Below, one piece after another: positions 13,731-41,815 of a stretch of DNA of 48,182 bases; the stretch's first letter is position 1; each line of letters begins with the position of its first letter. The position numbers were made by a program, and so were the translations under genes. Origin of the DNA: an uncultured bacterium (GTDB lineage: Bacteria; Bacillota; Clostridia; Lachnospirales; Lachnospiraceae); the NCBI GenBank assembly GCA_947381965.1, contig CANCXX010000034.1, positions 1 to 48,182 on the forward strand, written 5' to 3'. The notes beneath the pieces were generated by a model that had not been told where the DNA came from, did not search any database, and was given only the letters and a program-made list of their open reading frames with translations.

Positions 13731-13760
13731 ATGACAGTCTCCTGATTAGGAGGCTGTCAT
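13731..13760 (-). terminator. Terminator of the ABC exporter operon, overlapping its stop codon
   Basis: Arms 13731-13743 and 13748-13760 make a 13-bp stem with one G-U pair and a 4-nt loop. On the minus strand it is followed by a T-rich run (TTTTATTAC). The TAA stop of the second ABC gene lies in the loop and first stem base. It may also slow plus-strand transcription from the helicase gene. Confidence 0.85.
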
Positions 13761-15524
13761 CATTTGTGCAGTATGAAGTCTGTAATAGGCTCCCTTTTTT
13801 GCCATTAATTCACTTGCAGAACCTTCTTCCACAATACCGCCGTTATCAATTACAAAAATCCGGTCAGCTTTTTGGATGGTGGATAATCGGTGTGCAATTA
13901 CGAAAGAAGTGCGTCCCTTTAGCAGGGCGTCAATTCCTTCCTGTACCAAAAGTTCTGTCTGTGTATCAATACTGGAAGTAGCTTCATCCAGTATAAGTAT
14001 ATTAGGTTTAGAAACCATGGTTCTTGCAAAGGCAAGAAGCTGTTTTTGCCCTACGGAAAGTCCGCCGCCCCGTTCGGATAAAATGGTATCATATCCTTTT
14101 TCAAGCTTACAGATAAAGTCGTGGGCATGGACTGCTCTGGCTGCTTCTTCAATTTCCGCGTCTGTGGCATCTAATTTTCCATACCGGATATTATCTTTAA
14201 TGGAACCTGTAAATAGAAAGTTATCCTGTGTCATAATTCCCATCTGACGGCGAAGGCTTTCAATGGAGACTTTTTTTACATCAAAACCATCTACCCTGAC
14301 AATTCCTTTCTGTACATCGTAAAAACGGCTGATCAGGTTTACAATAGTGGTCTTGCCTGCTCCGGTAGGGCCTACAAGTGCAATGGTTTCGCCTGGTTTT
14401 ACATCAAAGCTTACATTATTTAATACTTCTGTATTCTGGTCATAGGAGAAGCCTACATGGGAAAAAGTAACCTGTCCCTGGATGGGAGGTATCTCTTCCA
14501 CATTCTCCGCGTCTTTGATTCCAGCTTCTGTATCAAGAATTTCAAAGACACGCTCTGCAGCGGCAATGTTTGTAATTATCTGATTATAAAAATTACTCAA
14601 ATTCATAATCGGATGCCAGAACATGCCGATGTAGCTGCCAAAGGCAATAAATGTACCAATGGAAACCTGATCTGGTCCCAGAAGCTTAAGCCCCACAAAA
14701 TACAAAGCGGCGAAGCCGGCGCCCCAGCATAAATCAATAACAGAGCCCATGCCGTCTGCCAGCCGGACAGCGCCTACAAAAGACTTGCGTTGCGCTTCCA
14801 GCAGTTCGTCAAAAGTCTGGCTGGTTTCCTCTTCTGCAGAGAAACTCTGGATAATCCGCATACCTGACATGTCTTCATGGATAAAAGCATTCAGATTGGA
14901 AGATTTTTTACGGAAATCCTGCCATTTTTTGTGGGAGTAAAACTGGATCAGCCATATGCCTGCCATCATAAACGGGAGGCTGCATAAGGAGGCTGAAGCC
15001 AGTATTGGACTTTTTAGAAACATAATAACAACCACAGCCAGCACAGTTGTAAAATCCGGTATCAAAGTGGTAACAAAATTATTCAGCATATCCTTTAGGG
15101 AATTGACATCACCGATAATACGTGCCAGGATTTTTCCTGTAGGACGGCTGTCAAAAAACTGCAGATCCAGTGTCTGGATATGAGAGTACAAATCCTGCCG
15201 GATAGTAACCAGAATACTGTTGCATACTTTTGCCATAATATACATGCGCAGTTTGACGCCGCCTATGAAAAGCAAGTTCAGTATAATGGCAAAAATTACA
15301 AGTTTAACCAGACCTGACATGTCTCCTGCAGAAATATATTTATCAACGGCCTGCTCCATAAGAAGTGGGTTGATTAAGGATACAACAACGCAGAAAGCCA
15401 TAATAAACAGTACTAAAATAATTTCTTTTTTATAGGTAAGAAGATAGGTTAGCAGCCGGCGGAGCGTGTTCAGCTTACTTCCGCCTTTTAGCTGTTCGTC
15501 TTCTTTATAGGAATTAAAGCTCAT
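13746..15524 (-). CDS. Heterodimeric ABC exporter, second half-transporter (catalytic-site NBD)
   Basis: A 592-residue half-transporter: six membrane helices in the first 320 residues or so, then an ATPase domain. Walker A GPTGAGKTT is at about 383-391 and Walker B ILILDEATSS at about 505-513 with the catalytic glutamate. The signature motif reads LSVGQKQ instead of LSGGQ, a degenerate form. The upstream partner has a normal signature but lacks the catalytic glutamate. This asymmetry is the mark of heterodimeric multidrug exporters such as BmrCD and LmrCD. Its ATG overlaps the partner's TGA by the ATGA arrangement, so the two are translationally coupled. Substrate unknown; drugs or lipids are most likely. 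Confidence 0.9.
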   Translation of the reverse strand: MSFNSYKEDEQLKGGSKLNTLRRLLTYLLTYKKEIILVLFIMAFCVVVSLINPLLMEQAVDKYISAGDMSGLVKLVIFAIILNLLFIGGVKLRMYIMAKVCNSILVTIRQDLYSHIQTLDLQFFDSRPTGKILARIIGDVNSLKDMLNNFVTTLIPDFTTVLAVVVIMFLKSPILASASLCSLPFMMAGIWLIQFYSHKKWQDFRKKSSNLNAFIHEDMSGMRIIQSFSAEEETSQTFDELLEAQRKSFVGAVRLADGMGSVIDLCWGAGFAALYFVGLKLLGPDQVSIGTFIAFGSYIGMFWHPIMNLSNFYNQIITNIAAAERVFEILDTEAGIKDAENVEEIPPIQGQVTFSHVGFSYDQNTEVLNNVSFDVKPGETIALVGPTGAGKTTIVNLISRFYDVQKGIVRVDGFDVKKVSIESLRRQMGIMTQDNFLFTGSIKDNIRYGKLDATDAEIEEAARAVHAHDFICKLEKGYDTILSERGGGLSVGQKQLLAFARTMVSKPNILILDEATSSIDTQTELLVQEGIDALLKGRTSFVIAHRLSTIQKADRIFVIDNGGIVEEGSASELMAKKGAYYRLHTAQMMTAS

Positions 15525-17254
15525 GCTGTGATTTCCTCCTTTGGTTCTCCATATTGTGCTACATAAGTCTGGTAATACAGCCCCTTTTGTGCCAGAAGGC
15601 TTTTGTGGTTTCCCCTTTCAGCAATTCTTCCGTTTTCCAGAATAAGGATTTCATCTGCATGACAGACTGCGCTGATACGGTGGCCGATGATAATTTTTGT
15701 AGTATCAGGCAGATGACGCAGGGTTTCGTGTATGGACTGTTCTGTTTCCATATCCAAAGCGGAGGTGGAATCGTCAAGTACCAGTACAGGTGTTTTCTTT
15801 GCCAGCGCTCTGGCAATAGTGATACGCTGCTTCTGACCGCCGGAAAGTCCCACGCCCCGTTCACCGATGACAGTGTCATACTGCTGTTCCATTTTTTCAA
15901 TAAAACTGCCGGCTTGTGCGCGGTGGGCAGCATCACGGACAGCGGAAAGAGAAAGCTGTTCCTTTTTCCCCAGCATTACATTATCTAAAATGGTGTCTGA
16001 AAACAGGAATACATCCTGCATAACCAGTGAAATGGAGCTGCGCAGCTGCTTTAGGGAAAGGGATTTTACATTTACGTCGTCCAAAAGGATAGCGCCTTCT
16101 GTGGCATCATACAGACGCTGGAGCAGATAAATCAGTGAACTTTTTCCGGCTCCGGTTGCACCCATAATACCAACTGTTTTTCCTGGTTCCGCAGTAAAGG
16201 AGATGTCGTGAAGGATTTCATGACGGTCTGCTTTATGGAAGGATACATGGGAAAAGGTGATTTTTCCATTTACCTTTGGCAGGATAACAGGAGCTTCGGG
16301 GTCTGTAATTACAGGTTTTTCTTCATAAAGTTTCTTTATTCTCCGGTTGGAGGCAATGGCAGATGAAAAGCTGTTGGTCAGCCATCCAAGCATTTCCATG
16401 GGCCAGACGATATTCATGGAGTATTCGATAAAGGCGCTGAGATCCCCCAATGTGATTTCTCCATTTTTAAATAAGTAGCCGCCGATTAACAAAATAATAA
16501 TAGGAAGCAGCTTGGTGATTAGTGACAGATATGGGTGATATTTTACAAACAGCTTGGATTGCGCCATATTCAGGTCATAGTACCGTTGATTATGGGAAAG
16601 AAATTTGGATATTTCATGCTTTTCCCTTGCGAAGGCTTTTACGGTCCTTACACCTGTCAGATTTTCTTCTGCAACGGTGTTAAGGGATGCGTTCTCTTCA
16701 CTGATTGCTTCAAATACGTTGTCCAACTTCCTCTCCATGAAAATTGCAATACAGGCGGCCGCTGCCATACATAGCGTGGGCAGAATTGCCAGCTTCCAGT
16801 TTAGGCTGTACATACAAAACAGTACGATAGAAGTATGGATAATCACTTCTAAAAGCAGCATCCCCACATAGGTAAGTCCATCCCAGATTTTGTCCACGTC
16901 GTCTTTAACCCGACTCATTAGTTCGCCGGTGCCTGTACGGTCAAAAAACTCTGCGCTTAAAGACTGGACATGACGAAACAAATCACGCCGTATCTCAAAA
17001 GAGATTTTGGATCCGGTGGCATCAAATGTGTATTCCTTGGCATACTGGAAAATACACCTTCCTAAACCGATACATAAAATTCCGGAAAGGAGAGGCAGCA
17101 GTTTCTGCATTTGACCGCCGATGATTACATCATCCACAATATGTTTTGTAAGCTGTGGAGAGAGCATATCCAGCACAACGCTGATAATCAGGGAAATAAT
17201 TGCAAATAAAAATGCAAATTTTTGCTCCCAGACATATGTTGATATTTTTTTCAT
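15521..17254 (-). CDS. Heterodimeric ABC exporter, first half-transporter (degenerate-site NBD)
   Basis: A 577-residue half-transporter with an N-terminal six-helix domain and a C-terminal ATPase. Walker A GATGAGKSS lies near 364-372 and the signature LSGGQKQ near 468-474. Walker B reads VLVLDDSTSALD, with aspartate in place of the catalytic glutamate. Paired with the second subunit's LSVGQ signature, this gives one inactive and one active ATP site, as in BmrC/BmrD. AGGAGG precedes the ATG closely. It is the first structural gene after a leader peptide and a strong terminator, so its expression is probably controlled by attenuation. Confidence 0.9.
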   Translation of the reverse strand: MKKISTYVWEQKFAFLFAIISLIISVVLDMLSPQLTKHIVDDVIIGGQMQKLLPLLSGILCIGLGRCIFQYAKEYTFDATGSKISFEIRRDLFRHVQSLSAEFFDRTGTGELMSRVKDDVDKIWDGLTYVGMLLLEVIIHTSIVLFCMYSLNWKLAILPTLCMAAAACIAIFMERKLDNVFEAISEENASLNTVAEENLTGVRTVKAFAREKHEISKFLSHNQRYYDLNMAQSKLFVKYHPYLSLITKLLPIIILLIGGYLFKNGEITLGDLSAFIEYSMNIVWPMEMLGWLTNSFSSAIASNRRIKKLYEEKPVITDPEAPVILPKVNGKITFSHVSFHKADRHEILHDISFTAEPGKTVGIMGATGAGKSSLIYLLQRLYDATEGAILLDDVNVKSLSLKQLRSSISLVMQDVFLFSDTILDNVMLGKKEQLSLSAVRDAAHRAQAGSFIEKMEQQYDTVIGERGVGLSGGQKQRITIARALAKKTPVLVLDDSTSALDMETEQSIHETLRHLPDTTKIIIGHRISAVCHADEILILENGRIAERGNHKSLLAQKGLYYQTYVAQYGEPKEEITA

Positions 17255-17290
17255 AAGATCCTCCTGTAAATATTCTTTCTGGCTATGCGG

Positions 17291-17331
17291 ACAAAAAAAC
17301 AGCCATGGTAATTGAAGCTACCATGGCTGTT
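17291..17331 (-). terminator. Attenuator: terminator between leader peptide and ABC exporter
   Basis: Arms 17298-17310 and 17319-17331 are perfectly complementary (13 bp, containing CCATGG) with an 8-nt loop, followed on the minus strand by seven T residues. It lies after the leader peptide stop (17358) and before the exporter start (17254). Bases 17391-17402 inside the leader gene can pair with 17323-17330 (two 4-bp blocks with a 4-nt bulge), a possible but weak antiterminator. Confidence 0.85.
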
Positions 17332-17357
17332 AAAAATCCGGTGTCAGTAGTGTGCAT

Positions 17358-17492
17358 TTATTGTTCTCTATGACGGGAACATAAATTCGCACAGCAAACC
17401 ATACAATGTAAACATAAGCCAGAAGGTAATTTCGTTATAGAATCATTAATGGAACTTGTTTTGGTTATAAATAATCTTTTAATCTTATTCAT
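17358..17492 (-). CDS. Cys-rich leader peptide of the ABC exporter operon (44 residues)
   Basis: A small gene with everything a gene needs: its own promoter, an AAAGGAGGT ribosome site 6 nt before the ATG, 44 codons, a TAA stop, and a strong terminator directly after. The peptide starts MNKIKRLFITKTSSINDS and ends with a cysteine cluster, C27, C30, C33, C34 and C38 (CLHCMVCCANLC), then a basic SRHREQ. The best precedent is BmrB, the leader peptide whose translation controls read-through into the BmrCD exporter of B. subtilis when antibiotics stall ribosomes. I recognise no homologue of the sequence itself. An alternative is that it is an exported or metal-binding peptide; no maturation enzyme is encoded nearby. 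Confidence 0.7.
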   Translation of the reverse strand: MNKIKRLFITKTSSINDSITKLPSGLCLHCMVCCANLCSRHREQ

Positions 17493-17538
17493 ATAATTAC
17501 CTCCTTTCCCAAATGCAAAAATTAACAGTTACAAATTT

Positions 17539-17567
17539 ACCATACGCCTTTCCAAATCGTTTGTCAA
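17539..17567 (-). promoter_or_regulatory. Promoter of the leader peptide and ABC exporter operon
   Basis: On the minus strand TTGACA (17562-17567) and TATGGT (17539-17544) are separated by exactly 17 bp, about 47 nt before the leader peptide ATG. Confidence 0.85.
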
Positions 17568-17583
17568 CAGAAGAATTTTTTAA

Positions 17584-17612
17584 TTGTAATTTTTTTATAA
17601 ATGACATAGAAT
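17584..17612 (+). promoter_or_regulatory. Promoter of the CDF transporter gene
   Basis: TTGTAA at 17584-17589 and TAGAAT at 17607-17612 with a 17-bp spacer rich in T. Transcription would begin near 17619, which supports the ATG at 17659 as the start of translation. It is back to back with the leader promoter. Confidence 0.65.
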
Positions 17613-17658
17613 GTCTTTAATGCAGCTTGAAGGTCAGCAGGTGGAAAGGAAAAGAAAA

Positions 17659-18834
17659 ATGATATCACTTTTAACAAAAATATTTATTAAAGATTATCAA
17701 AATACATCAGATTCAAAAGTCCGTCAGGCATATGGAATGCTTTGCGGCGGCGTGGGGATCGCGTTAAACGCCTGTCTTTTTTTACTGAAGTTTATCGCAG
17801 GCGCATTGTCAGGCTCTATTGCAATAACGGCAGACGCTTTTAATAATCTTTCAGACGCAGGTTCATCGGTGATTACCCTTGTTGGGTTTAAAATGGCAGG
17901 ACAAAAGCCGGACAATGCCCATCCCTTTGGCCATGGCAGGATTGAATATATTTCCGGCCTGCTGGTATCTGTCATTATACTTCTGATGGGGGCGGAGCTT
18001 TTAAAGTCTTCTCTGGCAAAAATCCTTCATCCGGAGGCGGTGGAAGTAGATTTACTTATTCTCTCTATTTTAGTGATTTCTATTTGTGTAAAGCTATATA
18101 TGTTTTTTTACAACAGATCAGTCAGCAGAAAAATTGACAGTGCGGCTATGATGGCAACTGCAAGAGACAGTATCAGCGATTGTATTTCCACTTTGGCAGT
18201 TTTGTTTTCTATGATTCTGGCATTTGCCGCAGATATACATATAGATGGATGGTGCGGTATTCTGGTGGCCTTTTTTGTAATATGGACGGGAATCGGCGCT
18301 ATGCGTGACACAATCAGCCCCCTGCTTGGGCAGCCGCCGGAACCGGAATTTGTGAAAAAGATTGAAGATATTATTATGGAATATAAAAAGCAGGGCGTCA
18401 TTGGTCTTCATGATCTGGTGGTGCACAACTATGGACCGGGAAGAGTAATGCTCTCTGTTCATGTGGAGGTGCCAGCCACAGGAGATATTCTGGTTCTTCA
18501 TGATATGATAGACGTGATAGAGCACCGCCTTTCACATGACCTTAACTGCAGCGCAGTGATTCATATGGACCCTGTGTGTGAAAATGATAAGCTGACCAAT
18601 CAGTTAAAAGGAATGGTTGCAGGCATTATTGCGGGCATGGAGGGGGATGTGCGATTTCATGATTTCCGCATCGTGCAGGGACCTACCCACACCAATCTGA
18701 TTTTTGATGTGGTGGTGCCTTTTGATTATGTAATGGCGGACGAGGAAATAGTTTCTTATATCAAAAATGAAATTTCAAAAAGAGAAGGAAATTATTTTGT
18801 GGTGATTGATGTGGATAAGGCATATTGTAGCTAA
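17659..18834 (+). CDS. Cation diffusion facilitator family exporter, possibly manganese-type
   Basis: A 391-residue proton-coupled divalent cation exporter: six membrane helices in roughly residues 27-215, then a cytoplasmic dimerisation domain that continues unusually far to the C-terminus. The transport-site residues in helix 2 read N62xxxD66 and in helix 5 D170xxxD174. Zinc exporters have His in these motifs, while the manganese exporter MntE of streptococci has an Asn-Asp-Asp-Asp set, as far as I recall. HPFGHGR follows helix 2. The start at 17659 has a GGAAAGGA site; upstream in-frame ATGs would lie at or before the transcription start. Manganese specificity is inference. Confidence 0.85.
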   Translation: MISLLTKIFIKDYQNTSDSKVRQAYGMLCGGVGIALNACLFLLKFIAGALSGSIAITADAFNNLSDAGSSVITLVGFKMAGQKPDNAHPFGHGRIEYISGLLVSVIILLMGAELLKSSLAKILHPEAVEVDLLILSILVISICVKLYMFFYNRSVSRKIDSAAMMATARDSISDCISTLAVLFSMILAFAADIHIDGWCGILVAFFVIWTGIGAMRDTISPLLGQPPEPEFVKKIEDIIMEYKKQGVIGLHDLVVHNYGPGRVMLSVHVEVPATGDILVLHDMIDVIEHRLSHDLNCSAVIHMDPVCENDKLTNQLKGMVAGIIAGMEGDVRFHDFRIVQGPTHTNLIFDVVVPFDYVMADEEIVSYIKNEISKREGNYFVVIDVDKAYCS

Positions 18835-41460: not shown

Positions 41461-41806
41461 GGGATAGTAAAGGTTTCGACAGGGGTCTTGCAGCTGGAGA
41501 AGCTATCCGCAGGCGATGCGTCAAATCGCAAAAATAAATATAAACGCTGAAGATAATTTAGCATACGCTGCCTAAGGGCAGCTGTCCGGCCTGATGCACC
41601 TGCACATCAGGAAGCGGGCATCGACTATGCAGGAAACGACATGGGCTAAGCTTTGCGCCTGTGGGCGTATTATGAAGCTACTGAATAAACCAGGGTGTCG
41701 GTTTCCAGGTTTAGGAGGGAATGAGGGTTTCCCGGAATAATCGACTATGATAGTAGAAGGACAGGGAATAGGTCTTTGGACGCGGGTTCGACTCCCGCCT
41801 ATTCCA
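41461..41806 (+). ncRNA. ssrA: Transfer-messenger RNA (tmRNA)
   Basis: The tRNA-like ends pair as an acceptor stem: GGGATAG at 41461-41467 with CTATTCC at 41799-41805, with one G-U pair. GGTTTCGACAGGGG follows the 5-prime end and CGCGGGTTCGACTCCCGC forms the T arm near the 3-prime end. The tag frame starts at GCA 41528 and ends at TAA 41573-41575, coding A-K-I-N-I-N-A-E-D-N-L-A-Y-A-A, with the hydrophobic AYAA end recognised by proteases. The CCA end is not encoded. It releases ribosomes stalled on broken messages together with SmpB, encoded just upstream. Confidence 0.95.
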
Positions 41807-41815
41807 TTAAAAGGC

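Follow-up and report, generated by a model that had tools for sequence, protein, structure and literature searches.

The window analysed here, a stretch of 48,182 nucleotides (contig CANCXX010000034.1 of assembly GCA_947381965.1) from the 4.3 Mb genome of an uncultured Lachnospiraceae bacterium, carries on its minus strand a short leader open reading frame (ORF) and an intrinsic terminator ahead of the genes of a heterodimeric ATP-binding cassette (ABC) exporter. We consider it probable that this leader is a ribosome-responsive three-way transcription attenuator, with the ribosome-binding site of the leader itself as region 1. At the level of sequence, our comparisons established the leader ORF, the terminator, two complementarities (1:2 and 2:3) and their joint variation across genera, and we propose that the state of translation drives the choice of fold. 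The parts of the locus are listed below in positions of the whole stretch; segments 1, 2 and 3 are the pairing arms, and in what follows L-numbers are loci and G-numbers are genomes.

17539..17567, minus strand: sigma-70-like promoter, TTGACA-17-TATGGT (-35 at 17567-17562, 17-nt spacer, -10 at 17544-17539), from the sequence
17507-17500, minus strand: Shine-Dalgarno (SD) sequence of the leader, AAAGGAGG, from the sequence
17495..17505, minus strand: segment 1, AGGAGGTAATT, in the leader SD and spacer, able to pair with segment 2, from pairing and covariation across genera
17492 (ATG) to 17358 (TAA), minus strand: leader ORF of 44 codons, MNKIKRLFITKTSSINDSITKLPSGLCLHCMVCCANLCSRHREQ, kept as an ORF in relatives while its sequence drifts
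17421..17433, minus strand: segment 2, GAAATTACCTTCT, late in the leader ORF, antisense both to segment 3 and to the SD of the leader, nearly invariant in the genus alignment
17314..17322, minus strand: segment 3, GGTAGCTTC, 5' arm and loop of the terminator, a mimic of the SD and spacer, covarying with segment 2 across genera
17298..17331, minus strand: intrinsic terminator hairpin (3:4), AACAGCCATGGTA / TACCATGGCTGTT, with a T-run to about 17291, from the sequence and stem covariation
15521..17254, minus strand: ABC exporter subunit A, 577 amino acids, ATG at 17254, Pfam and PDB matches, Walker B LDD, signature LSGGQ
13746..15524, minus strand: ABC exporter subunit B, 592 amino acids, Pfam and PDB matches, Walker B LDE, signature LSVGQ

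An initial annotation of this DNA had placed the promoter, a strong SD, the 44-codon ORF, a perfect 13-bp terminator and the exporter start where we find them. The terminator stem has no mismatch among its 13 bp, carries an 8-nt loop and starts 27 nt past the leader stop codon. Helix 1:2 of the window comprises 11 contiguous pairs, one of them G-U, and 3 of 200 shuffles were as good. Segment 3 pairs with GAAATTACC except at one mismatch and includes one G-U; relatives have the perfect form GGTAATTTC. When the window leader was folded under constraints, the free nascent RNA formed 11 bp of 1:2, blocking of the start region gave 9 bp of 2:3, and blocking of segment 2 gave neither helix.

Segment 2 would thus have two mutually exclusive partners, segment 1 as an anti-antiterminator and segment 3 as an antiterminator that imitates segment 1. 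Most likely, a ribosome that is halted on the start codon or immediately past it allows read-through, and both brisk translation and the absence of a ribosome lead to termination. On a leader without a ribosome, 1:2 would form and the terminator would form after it; under brisk translation, the ribosome would lie over segment 2 during synthesis of the terminator, and transcription would stop. A ribosome held at the start codon or the first codons would cover segment 1, allowing 2:3 to pair and RNA polymerase to enter the exporter genes.

The sequence of subunit A was searched in 37 genomes of the genus and gave a match at E<=1e-100 in 26. Full-length orthologues, 25 with that of the window, make up the genus set (the others are 72-85% identical to it), and the 26th, L054, is cut at a contig end. 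The layout of SD, leader ORF and terminator ahead of the exporter was found in 25/25, and is in this way conserved as the initial annotation had predicted. All the leader ORFs stand behind AAGGAG and 24 of the 25 have 30-53 codons, the end being masked by Ns in L052; the terminator is present at every locus (24 by script, L030 by eye). The leader peptides are almost wholly divergent, apart from a K-L-P-x-x-L shared by most. The DNA beneath this motif, GAAATTACCTtCCtG, is complementary to AAAGGAGGTAATTT of the same leader; L034 and L048 read it in a different frame. The loop and inner arm of the terminator read GGTAATTTC in most members, likewise the complement of GAAATTACC. Since segment 2 is complementary both to the SD region and to the terminator loop and arm, one segment has two possible partners.

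Swapping of arms between genus members, with 23 of the 25 leaders used, supported both pairings. The mean duplex energy of 1:2 was -12.6 for a leader's own arms vs -11.1 after swapping (0/10,000 permutations), and that of 2:3 was -9.2 vs -8.5 (17/10,000). Helix 1:2 was retained despite changes in L039 (GGC/GCC) and L045 (GATGTTAT/ATAACATC). The terminator stem covaries, with changes on both sides at 6/9 pairs (22/25 sequences). In helix 1:2, 76% of the cells of the genus alignment are paired and changes on both sides occur at merely 2/11 pairs, so the case for 1:2 rests on wider sets. As side observations on these loci, most genus relatives keep the promoter TTGACA and a GGCGTAT-like -10 region, including its GGCG, and G+C-rich repeat-like units lie between the terminator and the exporter start in L030, L037, L042 and L053.

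Two wider sets were compared. In 299 genomes of the family, nearly all of different genera, the exporter was found at E<=1e-150 in 56, and these gave a one-per-genus set of 53 loci outside the genus (the partial locus of G086 was left out). The other is a named set of 80 loci, nearly all Lachnospiraceae, in 79 of which a B-like gene follows A. Two of the named loci, L125 (Lachnospiraceae bacterium 10-1) and L136 (Parablautia muri), probably belong to the window genus, because their leader peptides are identical to those of L036 (G003) and L038 (G002) from genomes of that genus. Cultured commensals with the element include Parablautia muri, Roseburia hominis (L179) and Eisenbergiella tayi (L195). 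A script recognised the leader layout in 42/53 one-per-genus loci and 73/80 named loci; these counts keep some wrong picks, such as the terminators of L125 and L119 and the ORF of L151. Among the 11 one-per-genus misses, an SD, an ORF and an anti-SD segment were seen by eye in L071, L072, L090, L107 and L111, too little upstream DNA was available for L076 and L117, L115 is ambiguous, and L077, L081 and L093 seem to have no leader. The seven misses of the named set are L181, at a contig end, and L139, L184, L191, L199, L201 and L202.

In the one-per-genus leaders the spacer behind the SD varies (GGTAAT, GGTAAC, GGTAGG, GGCAGA, GGCAGT, GGCAAC, GGTAAGC) and segment 2 changes to match. Pair types at the spacer positions include T-A 20, C-G 13 and T-G 8 as well as A-T 22 and G-C 14. 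In the swap tests on the one-per-genus set (n=42), none of 10,000 permutations equalled the leaders' own arms for 1:2, for the spacer part of 1:2 alone or for 2:3, and the named loci (n=73) gave 0/10,000 for both 1:2 and 2:3. Helix 1:2 was better than 95% of shuffles in 34/42 one-per-genus leaders and reached p<=0.05 against shuffles in 58/73 named loci; a longest-complement test, with all ORF candidates taken and the best pairing chosen, gave p<=0.05 in 40/68. Between pairs of closest relatives a leader's own 1:2 was favoured 13 to 1, with 22 ties. Over a tree of 94 A subunits, 10 branches carry double changes at positions 4-8 after which the pairs still form, and no branch carries double changes that break them; a shifted-partner control gave 4. 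Single loci illustrate the match: CATGATTACC with GGTAATCATG in L185, CTTTACCT with AGGTAAAG in the SD and terminator alike in L114, and ATTCAGTCTGC with GCAGTCTGAAT, with one U-U mismatch, in L101. Among 391 genomes of the class the exporter was found at E<=1e-165 in nine, two of them from other families. By eye, an SD, an ORF and an anti-SD segment are present at both other-family loci (L248, GGAGGCAGG/CCTGTCTC; L249, GAGGTAGGA/TCCTACCTC); L249 has a terminator, and none is visible by eye in L248.

Several results weigh against a three-way switch of this kind. Helix 1:2 is weak, mostly lost, in L044, and its positions 8 and 9 are paired in merely 42/94 and 31/94 of the sequences on the tree. 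Within the genus, L039, L044 and L045 have a weak helix 2:3; in the named set this helix reached p<=0.05 against shuffles in just 40/73 loci, and it was not favoured between closest relatives (10 better, 9 worse, 17 ties). The permutations leave the relatedness between genera in place. In the complete leaders of the window, L033 and L035 no fold was more stable than the terminator even when the start was blocked, which means that read-through there has to be kinetic. Finally, the free nascent RNA of L078 and L101 prefers 2:3 over 1:2; with the start blocked, 2:3 wins outright in both. The stronger support for 1:2, together with the gaps in 2:3 among genus members and its showing between closest relatives, would suit an element that merely hides its SD, in which 1:2 limits leader translation, the likeness of the terminator loop is a by-product and 2:3 does not switch termination. 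We regard this as quite improbable, because the terminator arm tracks segment 2 across genera (0/10,000 swaps), also at bases that lie 5' of the stretch opposite the SD; examples are L101, L113 and L116, each with an internal mismatch.

The three-way attenuator that we favour would need translation of the leader, to which the SD, the ORF and the control of its frame point. In the 42 one-per-genus leaders, the frame set by the ATG, which was the one used to choose the ORFs, is open through segment 2 in 42/42, vs 3/42 and 1/42 for the other two frames, and a stop codon follows within 40 nt past segment 2 in 41/42 (61/73 in the named set). Segment 2 itself falls in frames 0, 1 and 2 in 13, 3 and 26 leaders, so that all three frames are used. 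The initial annotation had given loss of the reading frame in close relatives as a sign against attenuation by a leader peptide; the ORF is kept, and segment 2 lies in another frame in 2/25 genus members, L034 and L048, as expected if the RNA and not the peptide is selected.

This bears on the possibility of a specific arrest motif, as in bmrB or erm leaders, at which drug-bound ribosomes would stall on a defined leader codon; the initial annotation had proposed an antiterminator at codons 31-34. The K-L-P-x-x-L of most genus members, whose last Leu is TTA or CTG, could be such a motif, and characterised leaders such as rli80, with its RLR motif, stall sequence-specifically according to the part of the source available (PMC6310831). 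We consider an arrest motif unlikely here, since K-L-P-x-x-L sits on the conserved RNA segment, which is read in another frame in L034 and L048 and in three frames across genera, and no N-terminal peptide motif was seen by eye to be shared by the leaders compared. The pairing of 17391-17402 with 17323-17330 put forward earlier is feasible on paper, with 5 bp and 3 bp on either side of a bulge. The part of the ORF that it uses, codons 31-34 included, is however not conserved in relatives, and neither is the peptide sequence to which a role had been given.

The tail of the window peptide is Cys-rich, with five Cys codons, and the logic of 1:2, 2:3 and 3:4 is that of amino-acid attenuators, in which scarcity of a charged tRNA (here, for example, that for Cys) stalls the leader ribosome. 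Such a sensor is very improbable, given that the other leaders show no Cys run and no common single-residue run by eye, and that the controlled genes are exporters and ribosome factors and not biosynthetic genes. The same Cys-rich tail and the adjoining ABC exporter might also suggest a working product of the small ORF, for instance a peptide that the adjacent pump exports. We find this scarcely credible: the sequence is not conserved, the frame of the conserved block changes, and the peptide matched no Pfam or NCBIfam family at E<=1. A search with the 44-amino-acid peptide in the 37 genus genomes gave weak matches alone (E<=1 in 20/37 including the window's own, the best other at 1.4e-4); among the loci examined, the other matches had no adjacent exporter orthologue, with weaker ABC matches in L014, L016, L019 and L021. 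We infer that little depends on the peptide sequence and that the proposed attenuator is a largely peptide-independent sensor.

Subunits A and B form an adjacent pair of proteins with transmembrane and nucleotide-binding domains and are a heterodimeric ABC exporter like BmrCD, TM287-288 and TmrAB; their PDB relatives include the BmrC and BmrD chains (YheI/YheH). We take the LDD of A and the LSVGQ of B as signs of the asymmetry typical of heterodimers, in which one of the two ATPase sites is degenerate. No NCBIfam resistance model was reached at its cut-off among the best 25 matches per subunit, and the exporter presumably pumps out harmful compounds. On the other side of the leader, a gene for a CDF-family cation transporter runs divergently (17611-18834, plus strand), with its start towards the leader promoter. 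There is accordingly no gene upstream whose transcript this terminator could end. The window also holds a transfer-messenger RNA (tmRNA) gene at 41461-41809 on the plus strand, with the tag peptide AEDNLAYAA; this was the sole Rfam match in the window, and nothing approached the gathering threshold at 17240-17620.

Leaders of the same build seem, from their sequences, to precede other ribosome-stress genes. In L215 the leader stands before a gene for an RsgA GTPase, next to which comes an ABC-F gene; the ABC-F protein scores 458 bits against an NCBIfam cut-off of 380 as ribosomal protection-like ABC-F; OptrA was the nearest among the named models, with a score far under the cut-off of that model. 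Two further genera have leaders before RsgA genes (L238, L239). A search with RsgA protein brought in two more loci of the genus. One, L241 (G000:C24), is in the window's own genome and has, before an RsgA-family GTPase gene, a leader that starts some 470 nt ahead of the RsgA match; the other, L242, has no leader of the same build. The leader of L241 has 29 codons, a ATGATTACC segment and a long-loop hairpin with a T-run; its segment 2 needs a one-base bulge to pair with SD and spacer, and its 2:3 is weak by eye. Two near-identical leaders (MKG..TVSK..NI.TLPREL; L236, L237) precede PF09818 ABC-class ATPase genes, L216 precedes a GNAT gene and then ABC exporters, and L217, found via the RNA model described below, precedes an ABC exporter of another type. 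Six of these loci came from pattern searches that did no better than a reversed-pattern control, so it is the complete layout that carries each case. The link to RsgA is the best of them: it was met repeatedly, once through a protein search.

In these pattern searches we obtained 12 matches vs 19 with the reversed pattern in 37 genomes, and 17 vs 27 in 396. Matches were kept if they had an SD and ATG, an ORF ending soon past segment 2, a hairpin and a gene start. The 37 genomes gave 9 exporter leaders and 2 at other genes (L210, L213), with L205 rejected; the 396 gave 9 exporter leaders (6 at exporter loci, and L219, L225 and L227 by likeness to known leaders) and 4 at other genes (L226, L230, L231, L234), with L221, L224, L228 and L229 rejected. 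A covariance model, R1, was built from 22/25 genus leaders, omitting L032 (long insert), L047 (near-duplicate) and L052 (Ns). It generalised poorly, with E<=0.01 in 10/299 family genomes vs 56/299 for the exporter. Five of its 11 places were judged real (the window, G001, G191, G193 and G209). The other six were unconvincing: L062, a tRNA-like stretch by eye; L063, with no match in the alignment; and L064, L066, L068 and L069.

From the set of controlled genes and by analogy with the characterised relatives bmrB, vmlR, cplR and hflXr, translation inhibitors would be the natural signal. We found no description of the element in the open-licence PubMed Central (PMC) literature, a search that most subscription papers lie outside. 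In our judgement the chances are evenly balanced that it represents an undescribed class of attenuator, in which the 5' arm of the terminator mimics the leader's ribosome-binding site and one anti-SD segment chooses between them. Such a class would be a peptide-independent sensor of ribosomes halted in initiation or early elongation and a portable module of a Lachnospiraceae translation-stress regulon (ABC exporters, RsgA GTPases, an ABC-F factor, PF09818 ATPases), found once each in two other families. If so, this would be a widespread RNA switch, absent from Rfam, by which a major family of gut bacteria ties an export pump to translation stress. Its predicted inducers would be inhibitors that keep ribosomes on the start codon or close to it, the drift of the leader peptide with control retained would be accounted for, and the signature of SD, anti-SD and SD-mimic terminator would help to trace the remaining members of the regulon.

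Attenuators of the trp type also use the logic of 1:2, 2:3 and 3:4 with a moving ribosome, and their region 1 holds control codons. In the element described here region 1 is the SD, and no conserved run of codons was seen by eye.

Among the nearest published systems, cited here from the parts of each source available, the ABC-F attenuators vmlR, cplR and lmo0919 likewise have a short upstream ORF (uORF), a ribosome held at initiation or early elongation, and an anti-antiterminator, antiterminator and terminator (PMC9226507, PMC10201436). Nearest to our idea is an anti-SD element that PMC10201436 marks in the leaders of cplR and lmo0919, although the SD that the cplR element faces could not be made out in the part available. 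Their uORFs have 3-4 codons vs 23-54 here, and the window has no very short uORF before an ABC-F gene; the SD of the vmlR uORF is drawn single-stranded before SL-1, unlike the paired SD proposed here. The downstream gene is usually an exporter here and an ABC-F gene in those three, L215 alone preceding RsgA and ABC-F. The rli80-hflXr leader of Listeria is similarly a small-ORF attenuator before a gene for a ribosome-acting GTPase, as are our leaders before RsgA-type GTPases, but its 14-amino-acid peptide carries an RLR motif that is absent from the leaders here (PMC6310831). The toiL uORF before topAI in Escherichia coli also senses several classes of ribosome inhibitor; it targets the SD of the downstream gene and Rho-dependent termination, whereas the terminator here is intrinsic (PMC12121999). 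In Streptococcus pneumoniae, patAB has a terminator before a heterodimeric ABC exporter and a predicted anti-terminator, and the available part of that report makes no mention of a leader ORF (PMC4319486).

The system that the initial annotation had named, bmrB-bmrCD of Bacillus subtilis, is induced by ribosome-targeting antibiotics (PMC4191407). Its likeness to the window held as regards a leader ORF, probably translated, and an intrinsic terminator acting as an attenuator before a heterodimeric exporter, which we support by comparison; the particular antiterminator and the role for the peptide sequence gained no support. In bmrB the terminator and alternative structures lie inside the coding region, at nt 60-162 (PMC4191407, in the part available), whereas here the terminator comes after the stop codon and the SD takes the role of region 1. 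The window element would thus work like bmrB-bmrCD and the ABC-F attenuators, with an anatomy different from that of bmrB.
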